From Arthrobacter bussei (lineage in GTDB: Bacteria; Actinomycetota; Actinomycetes; Actinomycetales; Micrococcaceae): a DNA stretch of 64,000 nucleotides. Where the stretch lies: assembly GCF_009377195.2 (NCBI RefSeq), contig NZ_VJXX01000001.1, forward strand, positions 744,001 to 808,000, written 5' to 3'. The notes below the pieces were generated by a model. That model was not told where the DNA came from, made no database searches, and was given only the letters and a program-made list of their open reading frames with translations. Of the stretch, positions 1 through 14,117 are shown one piece after another (within the stretch, counting starts at the first letter, position 1; every line of letters begins with the position of its first letter). Made by a program: the position numbers and the translations under genes.

Positions 1-45
1 CAGGCTTTCGCTCGAGGCCCCGGACCGAGAAGTCCGCACCGGAGG

Positions 46-557
46 TCATACTGGAGCCGTCGTAACCTGATCGGCAACGGACGTGCATCCGGACTCATCC
101 GCTTGGATTCGACTCCGGAGTGAACCGTGGGCGATGACGACCGGGCAAGCGGACCGCTCCGCGACTGAGGAACTAACGGAGCCCAGGAGAAGCCCGGCGA
201 AGCCACCATGCCCGCGGGAGCCGACAACGACCATCAATGCGTGCTCGCTTTCGTCGATGAGCACTTGAGCCGCCGGTCCTTGAAGGACTCGTCGTTCCAC
301 CCGGCAGGGTGGTGCGTCTTGAAATGCGGCGGACAGTGCGTGATCGAGGGCGTTTTCTGCTAGTTCGTTGGGGTTCCAGTCGACGGGCGCAAAGGTGCCG
401 AAGCCGATGGGTACTGCCAGGCGGTAACTGCTCTAAGGAAGTCGCCGGCCAGTGGGACGAGGTGGGCTGCGAGTTCGAGTGCGGCGATGGATTGCTCCGA
501 GCCGTCGGCGCCGACGACGATGGCGCGCGGTGTGAAGGATGATGTAGCGGTGTTCAT
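46..557 (-). pseudogene. Universal stress protein (UspA family), frameshifted
   Basis: Two reading frames carry the two halves of one UspA-type protein. The N-terminal half starts at the ATG at 557 and shows the first beta strand and nucleotide-loop start (AIVVGADGSEQS). The C-terminal half, in another frame, shows the ATP-binding motif GSRGHGGFAGLLLGSVSSSV and the last strand CPVVIAH. A single indel around 390-415 separates them: the second frame reads on as APVDWNPNELAENALDHA, typical of this family, whereas the first frame stops at a TAG at about 360. This is either a real pseudogene or an assembly error. Two DosR-like boxes lie just upstream. Confidence 0.75.
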
Positions 558-627
558 CGTGGCGTCCTGCTTCCGGGTTCCGACTGTTGGACACATAGAT
601 CGTTGTACGGATGCCGGATGTCTTGGT

Positions 628-643
628 AGGGCCGAAAGACCTG
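628..643. promoter_or_regulatory. DosR-like box A1
   Basis: On the minus strand this reads cAGGTCTTTCGGCCCT, differing in two positions from the palindrome repeated in this region. It lies between the divergent universal stress gene (start 557) and the response regulator gene (start 770), in tandem with a second copy 27 bp away centre to centre. Function is inferred from similarity to mycobacterial DosR sites. Confidence 0.5.
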
Positions 644-654
644 TCCGAGAAATC

Positions 655-670
655 AGGGTCTTTCAGCCCT
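655..670. promoter_or_regulatory. DosR-like box A2
   Basis: AGGGTCTTTCAGCCCT, extended by flanking TC and GA into a longer interrupted palindrome (653-672). It differs by one base from the exact copy at 5680-5695. Placed about 100 bp upstream of both flanking start codons. Confidence 0.55.
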
Positions 671-769
671 GACGGTGCAATGTCCTGCGGGTGATGATGG
701 TGAGGATCGTAATCATGTGGATGACGAGGCCTGGTAGGAGCCCGGGCTTTGTCAGATTGGAGGATGTGC

Positions 770-1435
770 ATGGACAGGGTCCAAACCACGCCAGGCGCGA
801 AGATGACGGTTTTTCTCCTCGACGACCATGAGCTGGTCCGGCGGGGCCTGCGGGAGTTGCTCGAGGGTGAGGGTTTTGCCGTTATCGGAGAATCGGGATC
901 TGCCGAGGAGGCTGCTCGTAGAATCCCGGCGTTGTCGCCGAATGTCTCGATCCTTGACGCGAGGCTGGCCGATGGTACGGGCATCGAGGTATGCAGGGAT
1001 GTGCGGTCGGTCGACCCGTCGTTGGCGTGCGTGATTCTGACAAGTTACGACGATGACCAGGCGTTGCGGGGTGCTGTCATAGCCGGTGCAGCCGGATACA
1101 TCCTGAAGGAAATTCTCGGATCTGACCTGATCGACAAAGTGCGTCGGGCGGCTGCGGGCGAATCGCTGTTCGAAGCAGGTGTGAAAGAACGGATCATCGC
1201 CGGGCTTCAGGACGCGCCAGTCGAGGACCCCCGACTGGTCGGTCTGACGAGCCAGGAGAAAAAGGTACTGGCTCTCATCGGAGCCGGGTTGACCAACCGC
1301 GAAATCGGAGCGGAGCTCTTCCTTGCGGAGAAAACGGTCAAAAACTATGTTTCCTCGTTGCTGTCGAAACTGGGTTTCCAGCGACGCACACAAGCTGCGG
1401 TCTTCATCTCGAGGCCGGCAGCGTCGCCCCGGTAG
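770..1435 (+). CDS. LuxR/NarL-family response regulator, DosR/DevR-like
   Basis: 221-residue two-component regulator. The receiver domain (about 12-130) has acidic pocket residues in LLDDH, the phosphoacceptor Asp63 in ILDARLADGTG, Thr91 and Lys113 (YILKE). The C-terminal LuxR-type helix-turn-helix (about 157-212) has LTSQEKKVLALIGAGLTNRE and the recognition helix AEKTVKNYVSSLLSKLG. This layout and the LDxRLxDG motif match the mycobacterial dormancy regulator DosR. The start at 770 is chosen for a GGAGG at 759-763 with 6-nt spacing; ATG at 803 is an alternative. It converges on the sensor kinase gene with a 32-bp tail overlap, and the two probably form a cognate pair. Likely target sites are the boxes around 628-670, 3164, 5680 and 8206. 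Confidence 0.85.
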   Translation: MDRVQTTPGAKMTVFLLDDHELVRRGLRELLEGEGFAVIGESGSAEEAARRIPALSPNVSILDARLADGTGIEVCRDVRSVDPSLACVILTSYDDDQALRGAVIAGAAGYILKEILGSDLIDKVRRAAAGESLFEAGVKERIIAGLQDAPVEDPRLVGLTSQEKKVLALIGAGLTNREIGAELFLAEKTVKNYVSSLLSKLGFQRRTQAAVFISRPAASPR

Positions 1436-3074
1436 GTTCGAGCGGAATGTGGAGATGAACCACAGTTCCCTGCCCGGGTGTGCTGTCGATCGAGAGTGCG
1501 CCACCGCATAGTTGGGCACGGTGCTTCATGTTCGCCAGCCCGCTTTCGCGGTCCGGGTCCTCAAAGCCTCTGCCATCGTCGATGATCCTCAATTCCAGGT
1601 GATCCGTTGTCGACTTCAGGGAGACTGTGATGGCACGGGCTCCGGCGTGACGAAGGGCATTGGAAAGACCCTCGAGGAGAATTGCGCGAACATGATCAGC
1701 TGGCTCGCCGCGTACCGAGGTGTCCAGCGGACCGGAGAGTTGCAGGACAGGTTCAAGTTCGTGGCCGTCGAAGGCGTCGGCCACGAGGGCGAAGACGGTG
1801 GTGGTGAAGGTCGGGGTGACCTGCGGGACGGAACGCAATGAGTAGATCGTGTCTCGAAGTTCGCGGATGGTGGCGTCGAGTTCAGTCGTGATTGAACTGA
1901 TACGGCCCAGCGCCTCCTCGTCCGGGGTGTATTTGCGGAGGCTCTGAATACTGAGGCCGGCGGCGAAAAGCCGTTGAATGACCAGGTCGTGCAAATCCCG
2001 TGCAATCCGGTCGCGGTCACCGAAGACCGCCTCCTGCTCCCTTTGGCGGTGAATCCGCAGAAGCTCCAGTGCGAGAGACACGTGAGACGCGAACACACGC
2101 ATCACTTCGTGATCAACTTCGGTGAACAGTGGCGCCCCCGGAGCGCGGCCGATGAGCAGGAACCGCCGGTCCCCTTCCCCGGGGAGCCTGCAGCACAAAG
2201 CCGTTCCGATCCGGCCTTCGGCTGCGGGTAGCAGCTGCGCAATTTCGTGCGGGCTCAGAAGCGCCGGAGAGGGCGACATCGTCAGCGATTCCAGCAGCGA
2301 GGCACCTTGGCTTCGCCGCCCGAGGAGGCTTTCGACGTCAACTCCGTCTGCGGCTTCGCACATCAGTTCATGCTGGGTGCCGAATGCCCGAAGGACAGCT
2401 GCCAGGATGCTCTGCGATGAGTCGGTAGCGTGGGCCGAAAGGATCTCCAGATCGTTTCGGTCCTCGTCTTGCTGACCGAGCAGCTCCCTGACCGCGTTCA
2501 GTCCGCCCTCCAACCATCTCGTCCTGCGGTTGGCTTCGTCGAACAAGCGGGAGTTCTCGATCGCCACACCAGCGGCGGACGCCAACGAGACAAGTAGCTG
2601 CTCATCGGCGGCGGAGAAGTCCGCTCCCCCGTTCTTCTCCGTCAGGTAGAGGTTCCCGAACACCCGGTCATGGATGCGTATGGGAACCCCCAGAAAGGAG
2701 GTCATCTGGGGGTGGTGGGCCGGGAAACCGTAGGAGAGGGGGTGATCGCGTAGATCTGACAGTCGCAGCGGATGAGGCTCTGTAATCAGCAGTCCCAGGA
2801 CGCCGTGCCCGGTGGGCAACGGTCCGATCCGGTGGATCTCATCGTCTTGAAGCCCGACGGTGATGAAGTGGCTGAGTCTCCGGTGCGGACCGATGACACC
2901 CAGGGCTCCGAAGCGTGCATCAACGAGTTGGCATGCTGCGGAGATGACTCGCTCCAGGACTGTGTCGAGTCCTAAGTCGTCTGCGATGGCAGCGAAGGCT
3001 GCCAGAAGGTGCTCGACCCCCGCAATCGATTGCCTGACAGAGTCCGCGGGAAGCTCCCCTGGATCCGTGATCAT
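1404..3074 (-). CDS. Two-GAF sensor histidine kinase, DosS/DevS-like
   Basis: 556-residue cytoplasmic kinase. GAF-1 (about 25-175) carries the HHPQMTSFLGVPIRIHDRVF stretch; His121 and Tyr143 are 22 residues apart, as are heme ligand His149 and Tyr171 of M. tuberculosis DosS, so heme-based O2 or redox sensing is inferred. GAF-2 spans about 205-345. The HisKA_3 box RDRIARDLHDLVIQRLF places the phosphoacceptor at His362; the ATPase domain has GLSNALRHAG (N-box, Asn472) and DDGRGF (about 499-504). ATG 3074 has AAGGAG eight bases upstream; the GTG three codons earlier abuts the same Shine-Dalgarno. No transmembrane segment is visible. The neighbouring LuxR-type regulator is the probable partner. 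Confidence 0.85.
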   Translation of the reverse strand: MITDPGELPADSVRQSIAGVEHLLAAFAAIADDLGLDTVLERVISAACQLVDARFGALGVIGPHRRLSHFITVGLQDDEIHRIGPLPTGHGVLGLLITEPHPLRLSDLRDHPLSYGFPAHHPQMTSFLGVPIRIHDRVFGNLYLTEKNGGADFSAADEQLLVSLASAAGVAIENSRLFDEANRRTRWLEGGLNAVRELLGQQDEDRNDLEILSAHATDSSQSILAAVLRAFGTQHELMCEAADGVDVESLLGRRSQGASLLESLTMSPSPALLSPHEIAQLLPAAEGRIGTALCCRLPGEGDRRFLLIGRAPGAPLFTEVDHEVMRVFASHVSLALELLRIHRQREQEAVFGDRDRIARDLHDLVIQRLFAAGLSIQSLRKYTPDEEALGRISSITTELDATIRELRDTIYSLRSVPQVTPTFTTTVFALVADAFDGHELEPVLQLSGPLDTSVRGEPADHVRAILLEGLSNALRHAGARAITVSLKSTTDHLELRIIDDGRGFEDPDRESGLANMKHRAQLCGGALSIDSTPGQGTVVHLHIPLEPTGATLPASR

Positions 3075-3162
3075 CAACTGCACTCCTTCGAAGAAGGCGC
3101 TCTACCTTCTCATTGACGTTCGATCTGCCGAGGAGGGGCGGCTCGTAGTCCTCGCTGACCGG

Positions 3163-3180
3163 TAGGGTCCGAGGGCCCTA
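3163..3180. promoter_or_regulatory. DosR-like box B
   Basis: TAGGGTCCGAGGGCCCTA, with the arms AGGGTC and GGCCCT kept but a changed centre. It ends 34 bp before the ATG of the flavin-fold gene at 3214 and lies about 90 bp upstream of the kinase start at 3074, so it could control both divergent genes. Confidence 0.45.
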
Positions 3181-3213
3181 CTGGTCGGGCCGGTCAGTTC
3201 GTAGTGTCCGTAT

Positions 3214-3663
3214 ATGGAAGCTGAGAGTACACCTACGAAAATTCTTGCAGCTCATGAATGCTGGAGCTTGCTCCGTGATAGCCCGTTCGGGCGTCTGGCG
3301 TTCTGTGTGCAGGGAGAACCCGATATTCTCCCCATCAACTTCGTCGTCGATCACGGCTCGATTGTTTTCCGCACATCCGAAGGAACGAAGTCCCGCTCCT
3401 CAGAGAGAGCTGCCGTCGCCTTCGAAGCTGACGGTTTTCTCGGTGACGGCACTCGAGTGTGGAGTGTCGTCGTGAAAGGGCAGGCGTCGACCATCAACCA
3501 GACACCCGAGCTCATGAGGACGGTGCACTTGCCCTTGCACCCGTGGGAGGCGGGCCGGAAGGACCGGTACATGCGCCTGGTCCCCGAGACGATCAGTGGG
3601 CGCTCGTTCGCGCCGGTCCCGACATCGCCCTACCTTCAAGCGGTGGAGGCACACGATGAGTAA
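3214..3663 (+). CDS. Pyridoxamine 5'-phosphate oxidase-fold flavoprotein
   Basis: 149 residues with the split beta-barrel signature of the FMN- or F420-binding PNPOx-like superfamily: a helix with WSLLRDSPFGRLAFCVQG, then ILPINFVVDHGSIVFRTSEG, the strand AVAFEADGF, and WSVVVKGQAS. The substrate cannot be read from sequence. Related small proteins occur in the mycobacterial DosR regulon. A DosR-like palindrome lies about 35-50 bp upstream, and no strong Shine-Dalgarno is seen before ATG 3214. The 3' end overlaps the convergent universal stress gene by 71 bp. A second paralogue is at 5839. Confidence 0.8.
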   Translation: MEAESTPTKILAAHECWSLLRDSPFGRLAFCVQGEPDILPINFVVDHGSIVFRTSEGTKSRSSERAAVAFEADGFLGDGTRVWSVVVKGQASTINQTPELMRTVHLPLHPWEAGRKDRYMRLVPETISGRSFAPVPTSPYLQAVEAHDE

Positions 3664-4513
3664 AAACCAGAGTCGGGCACGGAGGCTCCAGCAGCAGTGA
3701 ATGGGTAACCGAGCCCAACGAGCTGATCGATCTGGCTCCTGCCCCATGCCGGCCGATGATCAGCAGGTCCGCGCCCGCGCCCTGTAGCGTGAGGGCCTGC
3801 AGCGGTGAGTGGAGGTCGTCCACAACCCACCGCACCGGCAGCGAGGGATGCCTCCTCCTCACCTCCACCAACATCGCCGACGCGCTGACGGTCATAGGTT
3901 CAAATGACGGACCCATGGCCGTCACCACGGTCAGGGAGGTACCAGCGGCATCAGCCTCCTCCGCAGCCCTCATGAGCGCCTCATAAGACGCCTGGGAACC
4001 GTCCACTCCTGCAACCACACCGCCCCGGTCTTCTGCCAATGACGGATGCAGGAACCGTGGCGGTACCACCACGACCGGTGCACCCGAATTCAGCCCTACC
4101 AGCAGCGCGACGGATCCTGCAAAGACACCGGTGCCCGGGTCCTTCCGATCAGCGCCGACGATGATCATGTCCGCGGATGCAGACATGCCCAGGAGCGCCT
4201 CGACAATTCCACCGCAATGTACGTACGTCGCGACCCGCAGGCCGGGATGACAGTGCTCTACCCTTCCCGCTTCATCGCTGACAAGGTCCCGGCCGGCGAT
4301 CACCTTGTCCCCGTACGCGGTTCCTGGTCTAAGCAGCGAAGGATCGGCAACGGCATGCAGAATCGTAAGCTGCACGCCGAGTGACACCGCCCTGCGGGCG
4401 GCCCAGTCCACTGCAGCCCGGTCCGTCACTGGATCACGCATCGCCACAAGCATCCGTTCCCCATGCGGGGTGGTCGGTGCAGCCGACACCCTGTCGGGCA
4501 GGAGAGTCGTCAT
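3593..4513 (-). CDS. Tandem-domain universal stress protein
   Basis: 306 residues with two UspA domains (about 20-155 and 165-290). The first ends with SADMIIVGADRKDPGTGVFAGSV and PVVVVP; the second begins GGVVAGVDGSQASYEAL and has DLLIIGRHGAGARSISSLGSV and CPTLVFTH. The glycine-rich motifs suggest ATP binding in the second domain; the first is less canonical. The start ATG overlaps the stop of the upstream alcohol dehydrogenase by 4 nt (ATGA), so the two are cotranscribed and probably driven by the box at 5680. A role in metabolic slowdown under hypoxia is inferred from the mycobacterial parallel. Confidence 0.85.
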   Translation of the reverse strand: MTTLLPDRVSAAPTTPHGERMLVAMRDPVTDRAAVDWAARRAVSLGVQLTILHAVADPSLLRPGTAYGDKVIAGRDLVSDEAGRVEHCHPGLRVATYVHCGGIVEALLGMSASADMIIVGADRKDPGTGVFAGSVALLVGLNSGAPVVVVPPRFLHPSLAEDRGGVVAGVDGSQASYEALMRAAEEADAAGTSLTVVTAMGPSFEPMTVSASAMLVEVRRRHPSLPVRWVVDDLHSPLQALTLQGAGADLLIIGRHGAGARSISSLGSVTHSLLLEPPCPTLVFTHRVPPPLEGRAMSGPARTSAH

Positions 4514-5610
4514 GGTCGTGCCTCCGGATCATGATCAAGCTCAGGATCTTGGGCCTGAGACGGGATGACGACGGCTCGTCCCCGAAGGGTGCCGGCGTGG
4601 AGCGACTCGTAGGCGCGGGGCGCCTCATCAAGGCTGAAGCGTTCAATTTCGACCTTGATCCTGCCCGTGCGGGCCAGTTCCAGGACTTCAATGAGCTCGG
4701 ATCGAGATCCCCAGTAAGGGGCTCTCGCCGATGACTCCCACGGCGTTGAAAAGAACCCGACCTGCACTGTCCCGGGGCCGACCCCGACGACGACGATCTC
4801 CCCGCCGACGCCAACGAGGCGGGCAGCGAGTTCTGTGGTCGATTGGATGCCGACGAAGTCAAAGACGGCCGCCGCGCCCCGTCCGCCGGATAGCGCGCGA
4901 ATCTCCTCCTCAAGCATCAACATCGTCTCTGCTGCTCCGCCAGTCACGAACCCGAAGTGTGCTCCGACGGCTCGCGCCAGATCGATCTTGTCCCCGGCAG
5001 TGTCGAGCGCTATCACCAAACTGGGCGTGATCGCGCGGAGGATTTGCACCGCAACGTGTCCGAGACCGCCCGCGCCAATGACTATTGCTACCGATCCTGG
5101 TACCAGGATCGGCAGGCTCTTCTTGATCGCGTGATAGGGCGTCAGGCCCGCATCGGTCAAAGACACGCAGGTCACCGGGTCGAGGCCGCCCAACGAGACG
5201 AGGTGCCGCGCGTCGTCGACTAACAGGTACTCAGCCATCGCGCCAGGCGCACCAAGACCGGGTGGGCGGATACCTTGGACCGCAGCGCTCTCGCAGTAGT
5301 TCTCCTCACCGCGGGAGCACGCATAGCAGCGCCCGCAACCCCAGGGACCATAAACAAGCACCGACTCCCCGACGCTGATTCCCTTCACCCCCTCACCGAG
5401 AGATTCGACAATGCCGGCACATTCGTGCCCAAGGGTCAGCGGGAGCCCGTACACGTACTGCTCTTCCGGCAGACTCATGATGAACTCGTCTGAATGGCAG
5501 ACCCCCGCAGCGCTTACACGAAGCAGCACCTCTCCCGGCCCAGGAACCGGTACGGGAACGTCAACGACCTCCGGGGCTCTGCCGATACTTCTGTACTGAA
5601 AAGCCTTCAC
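4510..5610 (-). CDS. Zinc-dependent medium-chain alcohol dehydrogenase
   Basis: 366-residue MDR enzyme. Catalytic zinc ligands appear as Cys38 (GVCHSD), His62-Glu63 (GHE) and Asp153; structural zinc cysteines are at 92, 95, 98 and 106 (CGRCYACSRGEENYC). The nucleotide-binding Rossmann motif is GAGGLGHVAVQ. It is expected to oxidise alcohols or reduce aldehydes with NAD(P). The GTG start at 5610 is preceded by a strong GGAGGGAAAGG. It is first gene of a two-gene unit with the universal stress protein. A perfect copy of the DosR-like palindrome lies 70-85 bp upstream, which suggests hypoxic induction and a role in redox balance. Confidence 0.88.
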   Translation of the reverse strand: MKAFQYRSIGRAPEVVDVPVPVPGPGEVLLRVSAAGVCHSDEFIMSLPEEQYVYGLPLTLGHECAGIVESLGEGVKGISVGESVLVYGPWGCGRCYACSRGEENYCESAAVQGIRPPGLGAPGAMAEYLLVDDARHLVSLGGLDPVTCVSLTDAGLTPYHAIKKSLPILVPGSVAIVIGAGGLGHVAVQILRAITPSLVIALDTAGDKIDLARAVGAHFGFVTGGAAETMLMLEEEIRALSGGRGAAAVFDFVGIQSTTELAARLVGVGGEIVVVGVGPGTVQVGFFSTPWESSARAPYWGSRSELIEVLELARTGRIKVEIERFSLDEAPRAYESLHAGTLRGRAVVIPSQAQDPELDHDPEARP

Positions 5611-5678
5611 GAGTGACCTTTCCCTCCGATAAGTCCTGCTCCCTGTCTTCTACGATCACAGACCGGTAACCGCCTGAT

Positions 5679-5696
5679 CAGGGTCTTTCGGCCCTG
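5679..5696. promoter_or_regulatory. DosR-like box C (clearest copy)
   Basis: CAGGGTCTTTCGGCCCTG with 7-nt complementary arms, sitting between the divergent alcohol dehydrogenase (start 5610) and PNPOx-fold gene (start 5839). It keeps the GGG-C...G-CCC arms of the mycobacterial DosR consensus. This copy defines the repeated motif in this window. Confidence 0.6.
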
Positions 5697-5838
5697 ATAT
5701 CCATGCAGGGCTCCCCCGTAGCGTCGATATCAGCCACCCGTTACCGATGTGCCGGATGGCGTCACTCCGATCCCAGAGTGACGCGCAGGAACAGGACCGA
5801 CAAGAGTGGGCGCGAGGCCCACATCAGGGAAGGACCGC

Positions 5839-6291
5839 ATGATGACAACGCCTTCACGTCAGGACAGCTACTGGGATAGCCCGGGAACACTGCACGCCTC
5901 CGAGGTGCTGACGCCGTCCCAGTGCTGGGCGTTGGCAACCACACAGACGATGGGTCGTCTCGGGTTCTTCCGCGAAGGGCTGCTGAACATATTCCCCGTC
6001 AACTATTTCGTCCTCGACGAGCACGTCTATTTCAGGACTAGGGCCGACGGTCTCATTGCGACCAGCTACCTCGAACACGCGGCGTTCCAAACCGACTTCG
6101 TGGATATGACCACACAGAGCGGATGGGCCATCCTCGTCAACGGACCCGCTACCCGGGTTCAGGACCCTGACAGGCTTTCCATCCTCTGGGGCAAGGTCGC
6201 TGAGGAACCGTGGGCACCAGGGTTACGCGACTTATTTTTCGACTTCACGCCGGAGCACGTGCGAGGCCGGCGGTTCCACACCACCCACTAA
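5839..6291 (+). CDS. Pyridoxamine 5'-phosphate oxidase-fold flavoprotein (second copy)
   Basis: 150 residues with the same fold as the gene at 3214: LTPSQCWALATTQTMGRLGF, then LNIFPVNYFVLDEHVYFRTR, the strand AAFQTDFVDM and GWAILVNGPATRV. The C-terminus VRGRRFH corresponds to the flavin-contacting tail seen in this family. Start ATG at 5839 or 5842, with AAGGA at 5830-5834. It is divergent from the alcohol dehydrogenase and shares the box at 5680. The function is unknown beyond flavin binding; the two paralogues are clearly diverged, so this is not a recent duplication. Confidence 0.8.
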   Translation: MMTTPSRQDSYWDSPGTLHASEVLTPSQCWALATTQTMGRLGFFREGLLNIFPVNYFVLDEHVYFRTRADGLIATSYLEHAAFQTDFVDMTTQSGWAILVNGPATRVQDPDRLSILWGKVAEEPWAPGLRDLFFDFTPEHVRGRRFHTTH

Positions 6292-6315
6292 GCCGGCCTA
6301 TCAATGCGCCCCCAC

Positions 6316-6354
6316 CACACAGATAGTTCACACAGATAGTTCACACAGACAGAT
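6316..6354. repeat. Three 13-bp direct repeats in the 6.3-6.5 kb gap
   Basis: Units CACACAGATAGTT (6316-6328), an identical copy (6329-6341) and CACACAGACAGAT (6342-6354). The third copy leads into an inverted repeat, GTTCACA at 6339-6345 and TGTGAAC at 6357-6363. They lie in the 212-bp gap between the PNPOx-fold gene and the zinc-ribbon gene; nothing else recognisable is in that gap. Confidence 0.7.
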
Positions 6355-6503
6355 CATGTGAACAGACCAGGCGGACAGATCGGGTGCAAAGTAATGTCCC
6401 TTATTGGATCCCTCGATCTCCTCCACCGATCGGTGTCGATGGTGCCAGCTCAAGCATCCCGGCAAGCGCTCCATCTGGTTACTAACGAGAGAAGGAAATT
6501 ATT

Positions 6504-6788
6504 ATGGATCAGGACCAAGCAATACAGCCTGCGGTGATCTCAGTGCCCGGGAACAGCATCACCGCCCGGGCGCGCGCCGGGACCGGTCCCCGTCCCCTTA
6601 CTCCAATGTGCCTGATGTGCGGTTCGGAGGACTCCCTGGTCTTCACCAAGTACACCGAACCCCTGACCCTTCCCAACGGGCGAGTGAAGCCCTCCCACGC
6701 CTGGTACTGCTGCACGCGCTGCGGACGCACCCGCGATCACACCGTCTCTGCCGGATGGCGCCCGCCCGGCTGGTTCTACTGCACCTGA
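6504..6788 (+). CDS. Small zinc-ribbon-like hypothetical protein
   Basis: 94 residues. Two cysteine pairs, MCLMCGS (about 36-39) and CCTRCGRT (about 69-73), are spaced as in a treble-clef or zinc-ribbon, with TEPLTLPNGRVKPSHAWYC between them. The first 30 residues look disordered. GAGAAGGAA lies just before the ATG at 6504, giving good translation signals. It is followed 34 bp later by the emfourin-like gene, so the two may be cotranscribed. The protein family is not recognised; it might bind metal or nucleic acid. Confidence 0.65.
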   Translation: MDQDQAIQPAVISVPGNSITARARAGTGPRPLTPMCLMCGSEDSLVFTKYTEPLTLPNGRVKPSHAWYCCTRCGRTRDHTVSAGWRPPGWFYCT

Positions 6789-6822
6789 CGAGTACGGCCC
6801 ATCGAGACGGCAGGAGTACATC

Positions 6823-7203
6823 GTGCACTTAAGTGTCCAGCGTAGCGGCGGCATCACGGGGGTGACGCGGCTATGGTCCGCTGAAATTCCGGAAGGCGAA
6901 TGCCCCAGATGGGAAGCAGTTCTCGCGGACGTCCCTCAAAGCGTTAGCACGCGGCCGGATGAGCGCATGTACGACATCACCTTAGGAGGTTTCCATATCC
7001 AGGTCACCGAGAAGGATGCGCACCAAGGCCAAATTGCTCGACTGCTACGCGAAGTGCAGCAGACCGGTGCTGCAGCGGACCGGAGCGGATCTGATCTTCT
7101 CGCGAAGGCAGAAGCCCCGTCAAAGACACCTGCGTCAGAGAAAGCTGCCTCATCGCTCCATCCAGATGCCGCCACAGCCGCTTTTCATCCACGCCGCTTC
7201 TGA
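6823..7203 (+). CDS. Emfourin-like protease inhibitor domain protein
   Basis: 126 residues. The first 85 residues resemble the protealysin inhibitor emfourin: an N-terminal strand with QRSGGITGVTRLW, a central segment with RPDERMYDITLGGFHIQVTE, and a helix QIARLLREVQQTG. The remaining 40 residues are Ala/Ser/Lys-rich and look disordered. GTG start at 6823 is supported by CAGGAG at 6811-6816. Emfourins inhibit M4 (thermolysin-type) metalloproteases and are usually encoded beside their protease, but no M4 protease gene is present here. Identification is by pattern only and would need a profile search. Confidence 0.55.
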   Translation: MHLSVQRSGGITGVTRLWSAEIPEGECPRWEAVLADVPQSVSTRPDERMYDITLGGFHIQVTEKDAHQGQIARLLREVQQTGAAADRSGSDLLAKAEAPSKTPASEKAASSLHPDAATAAFHPRRF

Positions 7204-7325
7204 TCCTTCCTACCGTCACCGAAGCGTAGTGCTGGTCACGTAGCCTACCTACCTGCCTACCTTTGTCAGAAAAGGAAATGCTGACATGGCAGGAGCCGAC
7301 GTGTGTCAAAGCCGACGGTAGAGAT

Positions 7326-7772
7326 CTACGGCTCCAAATAAAGAGGCTGCACGATCTGCAGGTTACGGGGCGCGGGGCAAGCCATGGTTGTCGCCAGACG
7401 AACTGTGAATGCCCTAGCACTCAGATCGGGTCGCACGGACTCCCATGCTTGTGCTCCGCTGAGATCGACGATGACAGTGCTGCCCTGAGCCAAGGTACCC
7501 GCACGGCGCACGACCAGGTCCAGTCCGCGCAGGTTCACTGACGTCACGCGGCCATGGACGATGATCCGCACTGTCCTCAGAGACGTATCTGTTGCAATCA
7601 GGACCTGAAATTTTTGCCCTACTGAAGACGGGTGGGCTGCCATGGACTTCTCGCGCAGAGATAGCCGGGAAACAGATCCGGGGCTGGTAGCAGCATGCGC
7701 TACAGCACCTGGGTCCGTGTTATGCGTCGCGGCGGAATGTGCTGCCGCCTGAGCCTTCGCTGAGGCGTTCAC
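7326..7772 (-). CDS. Hypothetical protein, possible STAS-like fold
   Basis: 148 residues. The first 50 are Ala/Ser/His-rich and probably unstructured. The rest alternates strands and helices: KFQVLIATDTSLRTVRIIVH, GRVTSVNLRGLDLVVRRAG, STVIVDLSGAQAWESV. The VIVDLSG strand and the preceding loop recall STAS domains, but no family is firmly recognised. Its start overlaps the stop of the upstream gene by 4 nt (ATGA), so the pair forms one operon under the DosR-like box at 8206. Transcribed towards the emfourin-like gene. Confidence 0.5.
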   Translation of the reverse strand: MNASAKAQAAAHSAATHNTDPGAVAHAATSPGSVSRLSLREKSMAAHPSSVGQKFQVLIATDTSLRTVRIIVHGRVTSVNLRGLDLVVRRAGTLAQGSTVIVDLSGAQAWESVRPDLSARAFTVRLATTMACPAPRNLQIVQPLYLEP

Positions 7773-8179
7773 CGGTCTAGGGCCTCTACAGGGAATTGAC
7801 GGAGAACTGGCGACACGGATGCAAGCGGCGGAGGGCTAGTTGTCAGACTGGTGGAAGAGCCCGCTGCACGAGCCTGTGCCCTGAGGAACACGACTTCCTC
7901 TCCCGAGAACCTATGCTCCCCATGCTCGTCACTGCTGAGCTTTTCGCCGGTGGTCGCCTCCACACGGTTCACAAGTGTTCGTGGCAGGACAACCGTTCCG
8001 GGATTGCTGATCAACCACTGTTTCACAACGGAATCGAGCCCGACCCACAGCGTACTGATGGTATTCACAAGAGAACCTTCCAGTCGTATCAAAGACCTAC
8101 CCCGCAGACACTGAGGCTTCCGCGGCGCAGCTCCCACAAAGGCACCCGTATCGGGCGATATCAGGTGAGTGCTATCCAT
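7769..8179 (-). CDS. Hypothetical protein, first gene of a two-gene operon
   Basis: 136 residues with no family that I recognise. The central part, LWVGLDSVVKQWLISNPGTV followed by VLPRTLVNRVEATTG, looks helical and folded; the C-terminal 30 residues are Ser/Pro-rich. There are no membrane segments or signal peptide. The start is ATG 8179, 27 bp from a near-perfect DosR-like box, which is the main support that this is a real gene, along with the 4-nt overlap with the downstream gene. Confidence 0.45.
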   Translation of the reverse strand: MDSTHLISPDTGAFVGAAPRKPQCLRGRSLIRLEGSLVNTISTLWVGLDSVVKQWLISNPGTVVLPRTLVNRVEATTGEKLSSDEHGEHRFSGEEVVFLRAQARAAGSSTSLTTSPPPLASVSPVLRQFPVEALDR

Positions 8180-8205
8180 CCCACCTCAACCACCGGACTA
8201 CCGAC

Positions 8206-8221
8206 AGGGCCGAAAGACCCC
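8206..8221. promoter_or_regulatory. DosR-like box D
   Basis: On the minus strand GGGGTCTTTCGGCCCT, matching the copy at 5680 in 15 of 16 positions. It is 27 bp upstream of the minus-strand gene at 8179 and about 150 bp upstream of the BON-domain gene at 8374. Such a short distance would place it near the -35 region of the minus-strand promoter. Confidence 0.55.
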
Positions 8222-8323
8222 TTCGCGTCTTTATCGCTCACCGGACACAAGATCCCTGTGATCATCAATTGGAACCTCGTGCACGAGCTTCGCGTCATCG
8301 ATTGCCGCTGACGTATCACTGGT

Positions 8324-8339
8324 AGTGACCTTCGGCTCT
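8324..8339. promoter_or_regulatory. Weak DosR-like box E
   Basis: AGTGACCTTCGGCTCT keeps the central CTTCGGC and has partly degenerate arms. It is 34 bp upstream of the BON-domain gene, at the same distance as box B from its gene. Judged weak on sequence alone. Confidence 0.3.
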
Positions 8340-8373
8340 GGTTGCTGACCTCACCGGATTCCACGCTTGAAGC

Positions 8374-8709
8374 ATGAGAAGCCACGGTGACGACCGACCT
8401 CAACCTCAAGACAACGCTGAGCCACAAACCGGGGGCATCCTAACGACTCTTCAAGCAGGCACTGCTGCTCCGAGACAGAGCACCTTGGGTTCGGTTGATG
8501 ATCCGCTCGGCGTCCGATCCCTTGTGGAGCAGGCGATAAGGTCCGCTGCACAATGTGTCGGTCTGGGTGTGTCCATGGAAGGCGGAACAGTAATTCTTAC
8601 AGGTACGGCCGCATCCTCGCAGGACAGATGCAGGGCCGGTCTAGCCTGCTGGTGCGATCCAATGGTGAGCGCCGTGCAGAACAATCTCCGGATCAAGCCT
8701 CAGTCCTGA
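8374..8709 (+). CDS. BON-domain protein
   Basis: 111 residues. After a polar N-terminus, residues about 45-110 show a BON domain: the helix VRSLVEQAIRSAAQCVGLGV, the strand-turn-strand SMEGGTVILTGTAASSQDRC, a second helix, and MVSAVQNNLRI at the end. BON domains bind lipids or membranes and often occur in stress-induced proteins. There is no signal peptide, so the protein is probably cytoplasmic. Two cysteines in ACWCD are unusual for the domain. The weak box E upstream would place it in the same regulon. Confidence 0.6.
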   Translation: MRSHGDDRPQPQDNAEPQTGGILTTLQAGTAAPRQSTLGSVDDPLGVRSLVEQAIRSAAQCVGLGVSMEGGTVILTGTAASSQDRCRAGLACWCDPMVSAVQNNLRIKPQS

Positions 8710-8850
8710 GCGATGCGGTAATTCCACTGTTCCATTAGAACCCACCAGGTGTGCCCTACGCCCTCCAACAGTTGCTACTCGACTGCGCCATGCGGGGTCT
8801 CCGGCGTAGGATCCGCGACCGCCGACGGCGGACAGAAAGAAAGGAACCTC

Positions 8851-8940
8851 ATGCCAGTATCGACTCCGGATCGCCGGCGCACGACCGGTGAGACGATGCC
8901 GTGGATAGACCATGCCACGCTTAGAGCATGCCGCGGTTAG
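8851..8940 (+). CDS. Short ORF with strong ribosome binding site, possibly a cut gene start
   Basis: 29 codons from ATG 8851, preceded by GAAAGGA at 8838-8844 with good spacing. The product (MPVSTPDRRRTTGETMPW...) matches nothing I know. It runs 4 bp into the end of the VIT-like fragment. It could be a leader peptide, a microprotein, or the 5' end of a gene cut off when the neighbouring segment was rearranged. Confidence 0.25.
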   Translation: MPVSTPDRRRTTGETMPWIDHATLRACRG

Positions 8941-9536
8941 ACCATGCCGGTGGTGCCGAGGAGGGCGCCGACGAGGTAGGTGAACGCCATCGCCAGTGCG
9001 CCGCCGAGGACGAGGCGGAGCATGGCACGCCGCCGGGAGCTCCCGCCGACGTGGGCGCTGACAGCCCCGGTGATGGTCAGTGCCACCAGGACCGCGACGA
9101 AGGTCAGTGGTATGCGGACCTCCTTCGGCAGAAGGAGGATCGCGAGCAGCGGTAGGACGGCACCAGCCGCGAACGCTGCAGCGGAAGCTAACGCTGCATG
9201 CCAGGGGTTGACGACCTCGAGTTCGTCGATGTTCAGTTCGGCTGAGAGGTGGGCGGCCAGGACGTCATGACCCGTCAGTTCGACAGCAACCTGCCGGGCC
9301 GTGGCGGGCGTGAGGCCATTGGCCTCGTACAATCCGGCCAGCTCGTCGAGCTCACCGTCGGGATCCTCCCGCAGCTCCTGCCTCTCCTTCTCGATCAGGG
9401 CTTCCTGGCTGTCCTTCTGGCTACTAACCGATACGTACTCGCCCAGGGCCATCGAGACGGACCCGCCCACCACCGCGGCGGTGCCGGCGACCAGGATCGG
9501 CGCGAGGATGTTCGTCACGCCGGCGACTCCGATCAC
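8937..9536 (-). pseudogene. VIT1/CCC1-family transporter, N-terminally truncated
   Basis: 199 codons beginning at a GTG that corresponds to the VIGVAGVTN motif inside the first transmembrane region; about 40 N-terminal residues (including the ANDGIVST motif) are missing. What remains is typical: GGSVSMALGEYVSVSSQ, the cytoplasmic KERQELREDPDGELDELAGL helix, and three C-terminal transmembrane segments. Family members move Fe2+ or Mn2+ across membranes. Upstream sequence abruptly changes to unrelated DNA at 9546. Its 5' part is a near copy of the sequence at 13902-14117, where the N-terminus is intact but the C-terminus is missing. Confidence 0.8.
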
Positions 9537-9545
9537 CGTGGCCGC
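9330..9545. repeat. 216-bp direct repeat, copy 1
   Basis: Aligns without gaps with 13902-14117, with roughly 15 to 20 differences counted by eye. Both copies encode the same segment of a VIT-family transporter, from VIGVAG to DELAGL. The repeats mark the edges of a 4.4-kb block that holds conjugation-gene remnants, as expected after recombination between paralogues. Confidence 0.85.
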
Positions 9546-12883: not shown

Positions 12884-13901
12884 TCATCGACCCTTCGGCG
12901 ACCAGCCGACCAGCCGACCAGCCGACCAGCCGACCAGCCGACCAGCAGGGCCTTCTCCCGCTCCGAGACGGGAACACCGTTCCAGCAGGTCCGACTCGTT
13001 CTGCGCGAGTCCGCCGAGGATTTTTACGGAGGAGCGTTCCACGAAACCGGTCGCGATTTTCGTCAGCTCGTCGGTGGACAGCTGTAGGTCCTCGATGAAG
13101 TGCGTGATCATCAGTTGCCCCAGGCCCTCGGTCCGGTTCAGGCGGGTGATGGAGTCGATCTGGTGCACCAGCAGCTCACTGGCGCTCAGGGATTGCCACA
13201 GCTCGTCCATGATCATCAGGTGGTGGCGTTCCTCCATCAGGCCCGCGTCGGCGAGGGTCTTCGCGGCCGAGATGCCGGCCTGACCGTAGGACCAGCACAC
13301 TGTCTGCACCGCGGCGCGGAGCGTCAGCTGCGATTCGTCGATGAGGGAAATATCGAAGTCAACGGAGGCGTCGATCTCTATTTCCTTGGTGGTGTGCTGG
13401 CAGAACACGTCGCCGAACGGGCCGTGCTCGCCGAGGGCGTTCAGGCCGGCCAGGAAGTTCTTGAGCCGACTGGATCTGCGGTGGCGCGGACTTGATGGCG
13501 TCGACAACGTCCCCGACCAGCGGTTGCCGGCTCTCAACTTCTGCTTCTCGGCCGCCATGGCGATCACCATGGACAGCACCGTCTGTTCCTGCTTTTTCGC
13601 ATCCAGCGGTTCCTTGAACACCAGTTCGATGAGCCCGGTGAGGGTCATCAGGCGCCGTGCGTGGATCTCGGCGCCATCTGCCGCTGCATCGAAGCCGGAA
13701 GACACGCGAGCTCCCGCCAGAGCGGGCCGGCGTCGAGAGGGTTGGTCCCTCCGACACCAGTGGCAGCGTTCCACATGATCTTCGCCTCGACAGCCTGCAG
13801 CTGGTCAGGGCTCTCGACCGTCGCGGTGACGCCGATGCGAAGCGCACCAGTGCCGCCCTTCGGCTTGCTCCCGTTCGGCCTTGCGGGCCTTCTCGAGGGT
13901 G
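12884..13901 (-). pseudogene. VirB4/TraC-like conjugation ATPase, truncated and frameshifted
   Basis: The C-terminal half of a type IV secretion ATPase. Visible pieces in different frames are VTATVESPDQLQAVEAKIMW (near 13800), LTGLIELVFKEPLDAKKQEQ, a short GDVVDAIKSAPPQIQS stretch in another frame near 13490, then a long open frame with FLAGLNALGEHGPFGDVFCQ, the Walker B strand HHLMIMDELWQ and VKILGGLAQNESDLLE. Walker A and everything upstream are missing: at 13902 the sequence becomes a VIT-family gene. At least three frameshifts are seen, at about 13870, 13690 and 13490. It is followed with a 4-nt overlap by the coupling-protein gene, the usual order in actinobacterial conjugative elements. 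Confidence 0.75.
12899..12946. repeat. Six exact 8-bp tandem repeats (CGACCAGC)
   Basis: Six head-to-tail copies near the 3' end of the VirB4-like gene. On the minus strand they encode a period-8-codon repeat (AGRLVGWS twice) before the stop. Eight-bp units change the frame with each copy gained or lost, so the tract is a likely slippage site. Confidence 0.95.
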
Positions 13902-14117
13902 CAATCCGGCCAGCTCGTCGAGCTCACCGTCGGGATCTTCCCGCAGCTCCTGCCTCTCCTTCTCGATCAGGGCTTTCTGGCTGTCCTTCTGGCTACTGAC
14001 CGACACGTACTCGCCCAGGGCCATCGAGACGGATCCGCCCACGACCGCTGTGGTGCCGGCGACCAGGACCGGCGCGAGGGTGTTCGTCACGCCGGCGACT
14101 CCGATCACCGTGGCCGC
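13902..14117. repeat. 216-bp direct repeat, copy 2
   Basis: Partner of 9330-9545, same orientation, same length. The left end is the exact point where VIT-family coding sequence gives way to VirB4-like sequence. Confidence 0.85.

Follow-up and report, generated by a model that had tools for sequence, protein, structure and literature searches.

What reads a palindrome that recurs between the genes of a short cluster in the soil-type bacterium Arthrobacter bussei, and which genes does it control? The palindromes lie at the beginning of a stretch of 64,000 nucleotides (contig NZ_VJXX01000001.1, positions 744,001 to 808,000; hereafter the window), next to genes for a response regulator and a sensor kinase. 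A preliminary description of this DNA had read them as sites of a DosR-like regulator in what may be a compact Micrococcaceae dormancy module with new effectors. Our analysis identifies the cluster as a DosR-type regulon of the familiar kind, with conserved uncharacterised members. The palindromes, here called boxes, are very probably bound by a DosR-type regulator, the product of the gene at 803-1435. This protein would be activated by a DosS-type kinase, most likely on falling oxygen, and would drive the genes of the cluster. The DosR interpretation is supported because four features coincide: a DosR/DosS-type gene pair, palindromes of DosR geometry, boxes that recur at the dosR loci of relatives, and a fixed spacing between box and –10-like hexamer.

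Palindromes concentrate beside the regulator gene

All six palindrome sequences were found exactly where they had been reported, which confirms the initial observation. A search of the window with AGGGTCTTTCGGCCCT, allowing up to three mismatches, returned four sites (628, 655, 5680 and 8206), whereas 100 dinucleotide-shuffled controls gave a mean of 0.68, a maximum of three and in no case four. The remaining two sites, at 3164 and 8324, each depart from AGGGTCTTTCGGCCCT at four positions; the former has perfect arms around a different centre, and the latter is a weak form of the palindrome.

We then searched the complete own genome (3.63 Mb, 42 contigs). With up to two mismatches, AGGGTCTTTCGGCCCT occurs five times, four of these within the cluster (628 to 8221), compared with two sites for the reversed control pattern. 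This crowding of four out of five close matches into 8 kb corresponds to a binomial P of 1e-10, for a consensus itself taken from the cluster. At three mismatches, 41 motif sites faced 41 control sites, and the bare arms RGGGNCNNNNGNCCCY gave 45 sites against 60 for the control. Since both counts are at background, only the close matches are informative, and we excluded the looser searches from the evidence. For AGKGNCNWWNGNCCCT with up to one mismatch, 26 distinct sites were found, six of them within the 11-kb cluster, while genome-wide the reversed control was commoner (54 versus 24 forward sites): this enrichment is local and absent globally.

The five main sites fall between genes defined by homology, in agreement with the claim that the palindromes are intergenic. 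A codon-bias gene caller also places them outside genes, yet it misses several real genes of the cluster; because it is weak in this low-G+C DNA, genes there were called by homology. Equal frequency across the genome inside genes, which the preliminary description had named as the observation that would speak against it, was searched for and not found for the close matches.

A DosR-type regulator and a DosS-type sensor

Comparison with solved structures bears out the proposed DosR/DosS-like pair. The regulator contains the Pfam domains Response_reg and GerE, and the solved structure that it matches best is that of mycobacterial DevR/DosR (3c3w, E 4e-60). The recognition-helix stretch EKTVKNY and the stretch RRTQAAVF are identical in both proteins, and ILDARL of the regulator aligns to VLDVRL of 3c3w, where we take the aspartate to be the phospho-acceptor.

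The kinase carries HisKA_3 and HATPase_c domains and a GAF domain closest to the GAF-A structures of DosT/DosS (2vzw, E 6.5e-49; 2y8h, E 7.5e-45). In these alignments, His124 and Tyr146 of the kinase match the haem-ligand His and the distal Tyr, presumably the residues numbered H149 and Y171 in the mycobacterial sensors. Gly62 aligns to the position of a Glu/Gly difference, which we take to be Glu87 in DosS and Gly85 in DosT. Based on the kept ligand positions, the GAF domain is predicted to bind haem.

The signal could nevertheless be another one, such as nitric oxide, redox state, light or nutrient stress, acting on the same DosR-family regulon in place of oxygen. The haem site is a reading of sequence only, and nitric oxide and carbon monoxide are further signals of related sensors. 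Against this stand the kept haem-ligand positions and the DosT-like glycine, as well as gene classes that match those of DosR regulons, and we consider a signal other than oxygen unlikely.

A fixed distance between box and –10-like hexamer

Many boxes are followed by a –10-like hexamer at a constant distance. Among 16 flanks of the 20-mer boxes in the own genome, six carry the pattern nAnnnT exactly 20 bp past the box, compared with a mean of 0.54 at other offsets (P 9.2e-6); the hexamer pattern had played no part in building the matrix used below. These six flanks precede usp1, usp2, dosR, the first PNPOx gene, the alcohol dehydrogenase gene and the BON gene. With the promoter of PNPOx 1 left out, as it had first revealed the spacing, 5 of 15 flanks remain (P 1e-4). 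Box 2 is followed exactly 20 bp downstream by GATGAT (693-698), and GATCGT (5652-5657, minus strand) lies 20 bp from box 4. Box 6 scores low with the matrix (under 8 in one scan, 9.5 in another) but is backed by its position, as the 52-bp spacing and CACGCT at 8362-8367 (–12 of the BON start codon) reproduce the layout of the box at 3162.

The same spacing was observed in relatives, in the complete set of 31 dosR loci from other genomes that a search of the genus had returned. Among 197 distinct flanks, which share ancestry and thus do not give independent counts, TAnnnT stands at offset 20 in 24 and at any other offset between 5 and 49 in at most four; for nAnnnT, the numbers are 76 and at most 21. 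After dropping flanks with an ATG at +32, the TAnnnT peak persists in 11 of 181. In the promoter of PNPOx 1, which we compared in 19 same-genus rows, the best box is located at –52 in 17 (13 with scores over 12, four under 10), and TAnnnT occupies –12 to –7 in 18. A –10 element at this position would put the transcription start on the A of the ATG, so that the PNPOx 1 mRNA is predicted to be leaderless and the box, centred at –42.5, would overlap the –35 region.

Recurrence at the dosR loci of relatives

DosR was detected at E 1e-40 or better in 26 of 38 genomes of the genus, several with two or three copies; the nearest named relative by DosR, among the matches listed, is Arthrobacter sp. Br18 (82% identity). 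Using a matrix built from seven own boxes only and 30 column-shuffled matrices as controls, we scored 30 of the 31 loci of the genus search. Locus L220, seemingly the same contig as L045 because both are 23,784 bp long, was omitted here and from the site-preference counts but retained in the gene-content map and in the PNPOx-promoter and spacing counts. The matrix found 81 sites scoring over 13 (shuffled mean 7.5, largest 23) and 57 over 15 (mean 2.0, largest 9). From a separate search of genome contigs with DosR, we took the best 80 of 558 relatives. Eighteen Micrococcaceae loci (17 from this set, plus L065) yielded 23 sites over 13 (mean 3.9, largest 10), and 59 loci outside Micrococcaceae and Cryobacterium yielded 13 over 15 (mean 2.2, largest 7). 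No site over 11 was present in the flanks of the cluster in the own genome (83 kb).

In the relatives, boxes separate dosR from a divergent stress-protein gene and dosS from PNPOx 1, and further ones precede PNPOx 2 and u136. Gene content at the 31 loci, determined by tblastn (E under 1e-5), includes dosS in 25, the uncharacterised genes u136, u148, u94 and u126 in 15, 13, 3 and 2, respectively, and the BON gene in 2. An alcohol dehydrogenase with at least 67% identity is found in 8 loci. Each of the two PNPOx queries matches members of its family in 21 loci, with some cross-matching between the two. Two or three dosR loci, each with its own island, occur in several genomes of the genus (G003, G040, G009, G006), and 12 of the 38 have none, which suggests that the island was gained, lost or duplicated.

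Loci of this kind are not restricted to Micrococcaceae: among the best 80 of 558, dosR loci of Nocardioidaceae, Micromonosporaceae and others likewise combine dosR with GGGNC-type, WW-centred palindromes and an nAnnnT peak 20 bp away.

Comparison with known DosR systems

The mycobacterial DosR (DevR)/DosS/DosT regulon has the consensus TTSGGGACTWWAGTCCCSAA, and OsdR/DevR of Streptomyces is a further DosR-like system. With the mycobacterial regulon, the cluster shares the regulator and sensor families, a palindrome of 20 bp whose GGG-C and G-CCC arms enclose an A/T centre, a box that probably occupies the –35 region, a tandem pair of boxes upstream of dosR and universal stress proteins among the putative targets. 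The arms had been described as matching mycobacterial GGGAC...GTCCC. This is correct for the geometry, whereas GGG is here followed mostly by C or T instead of A: 140 half-sites in the genus loci show C in 72, T in 35, A in 26 and G in 7, counted in WW-centred GGGNC-GNCCC sites with families as named in the sequence records. The outer base is A/T, unlike the mycobacterial S. Half-sites of Nocardioidaceae/Propionibacteriales, in contrast to the genus loci, are mostly GGGAC (A in 37 of 64); those of Micromonosporaceae are mixed (A 30, C 35 of 76), and a mixed group of loci has A after GGG in 17 of 28. The nAnnnT peak at 20 bp is present in the genus loci, Nocardioidaceae/Propionibacteriales, the mixed group and Micromonosporaceae; seven Frankia loci contained no WW-centred site. 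Instead of forming a single operon as in mycobacteria, dosR and dosS are convergent, with 3′ ends at 1435 and 1404. Also unlike the mycobacterial regulon, the own-genome sites were found in one cluster only, among the sites examined.

Reach of the regulon

Perfect matches to AGGGNCNWWNGNCCCT track the presence of dosR: 42 sites were found in the 26 dosR genomes and 4 in the 12 genomes without it, compared with 44 and 18 for the control (P 2.4e-4). While 24 of the 42 lie within 10 kb of a dosR, 18 are far from it; nAnnnT at 20 bp accompanies 12 of the 17 far sites examined and none of the 4 sites in dosR-less genomes (Fisher P 0.02). The neighbors scanned beside the far sites include genes for eight universal stress proteins, three PNPOx proteins, a pyruvate phosphate dikinase, a GyrI-like protein and an ABC transporter ATPase. 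At one relative's locus (L281, 2565-5003), boxes with a spaced hexamer surround a pyruvate phosphate dikinase gene, making this enzyme a possible metabolic DosR target.

For the own genome, we considered further regulon members outside the cluster and rejected them: 74 pattern-chosen stretches (235 kb summed; the whole genome was not scanned with the matrix) contained 21 distinct off-cluster sites scoring over 10, none with nAnnnT at 20 bp. Within the limits of these stretches, the regulon thus appears to be confined to one cluster.

The boxes might be read by a different LuxR/NarL-type response regulator, since further ones exist in the own genome, where a first look returned 45 candidates for DosR-like sequence. 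However, the boxes flank dosR itself, the close AGGGNCNWWNGNCCCT sites follow dosR across the 38 genomes, and the recognition stretch is identical to that of mycobacterial DosR, so that we regard another reader as very improbable.

Proposed mechanism and evidence against it

We propose that the DosS-type kinase senses a signal, most likely falling oxygen via haem in its GAF domain, and phosphorylates DosR, which would then bind the 20-bp boxes in dimeric or tetrameric form. An active box would stand in for the –35 region, ending 20 bp before the –10 hexamer with its centre at –42.5, and DosR bound there would recruit RNA polymerase. The predicted output comprises the regulator's own operon, universal stress proteins, PNPOx-fold proteins, the alcohol dehydrogenase and several small proteins, which together should support non-growing survival.

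Several observations weigh against this model. Mycobacterial DosS/DosT sensors carry two GAF domains; Pfam detects a single GAF region in the kinase. An NCBIfam search of the pair gave no equivalog above cut-off, the best being MadR and MadS, far below theirs. Neither the second dosR-promoter box nor box 5 has the hexamer exactly 20 bp away on the side facing a gene; for box 5, nAnnnT was looked for 20 bp away on both sides and neither has it, although boxes before u136 recur in relatives. At a score over 11, the 18 Micrococcaceae loci gave 49 sites, equal to the largest control (49). Over 13, three Cryobacterium loci showed no signal (1 site, mean 0.6), and the 59 loci from other families were not clearly above controls (29 sites, mean 14.2, largest 43). 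The matrix test in relatives is not fully independent, as orthologous sites recur and one locus set represents one genus. Finally, the plain consensus with up to two mismatches is found in 35 of 38 relatives' genomes, with many sites far from dosR and at a rate little above control.

As inverted repeats between genes, the palindromes could also act as transcription terminators or RNA hairpins instead of operators. This is hardly credible for boxes that occupy divergent promoter regions and keep a constant spacing to a –10-like hexamer, the main ones without a T run after them in the sequence shown. Chance similarity in a G+C-rich genome, to which the background counts of the loose motif forms might point, is a negligible explanation given the clustering of the close matches and their recurrence in relatives.

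Genes and extent of the cluster

The features of the cluster are listed in Table 1. The cluster is longer than first described: it starts about 2.6 kb upstream of the window and spans from ∼L042:17358 to ∼8709. Its upstream part contains four universal stress protein genes, three of the single and one of the tandem type, and two further boxes (20-mers at L042 17866 and 17980) in the gap of a divergent pair of stress-protein genes. The frameshifted stress gene at 46-558 is either a pseudogene or an assembly error. The conserved start of u136 is GTG 8068, rather than ATG 8179. Profile searches against solved structures gave nothing weighty for u136 (two matches with E 0.05-0.06 over 24 positions) and no match for u148.

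Table 1. Boxes, promoter element and genes of the DosR-type cluster within the window
Feature	Position	Strand	Remarks
Universal stress protein gene in two frames	46-558	–	Frameshift between N- and C-terminal halves; Usp Pfam match for C-terminal half
DosR box 1	626-645	none	First reported as 628-643; faces minus-strand universal stress gene; 68 bp before ATG 558
DosR box 2	653-672	none	First reported as 655-670; faces dosR; tandem with box 1
dosR-like response regulator (receiver, LuxR-type DNA-binding domain)	803-1435	+	Start set by homology
dosS/dosT-like sensor kinase (GAF, HisKA_3, HATPase)	1404-3083	–	
DosR box 3	3162-3181	none	In the gap from dosS to PNPOx 1; begins 52 bp upstream of ATG 3214
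Putative –10 element TAGTGT of PNPOx promoter	3202-3207	+	–12 to –7 of ATG; predicted leaderless
PNPOx-fold protein 1 (Pyridox_ox_2)	3214-3663	+	
Tandem universal stress protein	3593-4513	–	
Zinc-type alcohol dehydrogenase	4510-5610	–	
DosR box 4	5678-5697	none	Perfect palindrome arms; between alcohol dehydrogenase and second PNPOx gene
PNPOx-fold protein 2	5839-6291	+	
u94, small, conserved CxxC...CCxRCG (zinc-ribbon-like)	6504-6788	+	No Pfam family above cut-off
u126, uncharacterised	6823-7203	+	Emfourin Pfam match below its cut-off
u148, uncharacterised	7326-7772	–	Related proteins at dosR loci of relatives
u136, uncharacterised	7769-8068	–	Related proteins at dosR loci of relatives
DosR box 5	8204-8223	none	Upstream of u136/u148
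Weak DosR box 6	8322-8341	none	52 bp before ATG 8374 of BON-domain gene
BON-domain protein	8374-8709	+	Pfam 27.5 bits, cut-off 27

The G+C content is 59-65% in positions 1-9000 and 64-75% over the next 11 kb. Plasmid origin of the cluster was considered and rejected, as positions 1-8800 of the window had no near match in a plasmid collection. Beyond the cluster, two VIT1-family genes contain a 219-bp direct repeat (95% identical; 9327-9545 and 13899-14117), and between its copies lie an RF-1-domain gene and a TraG/TraD-type conjugative coupling gene. With such a gene between the repeat copies, the cluster borders on mobile-looking DNA.

Implications for the family

More tentatively, and with somewhat less than even confidence, we suggest three extensions: u136, u148 and u94 may be undescribed DosR effector families kept beside the regulator in this genus; the box together with its spaced –10 might allow DosR regulons to be read directly from actinobacterial genomes; and the site preference of DosR in this lineage may have shifted from GGGAC to GGGCC/GGGTC with the recognition helix unchanged. 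Boxes that are likely to be active can be told from chance palindromes by the promoter rule of a box, 20 bp and nAnnnT, which none of the 21 off-cluster own sites and none of the four sites in dosR-less genomes satisfies. The sites of the switch also provide a list of likely controlled genes, in which the uncharacterised small proteins are candidates for dormancy functions. As a compact DosR-type regulon of a fast-growing and harmless group, the cluster offers a setting in which to study the switch.

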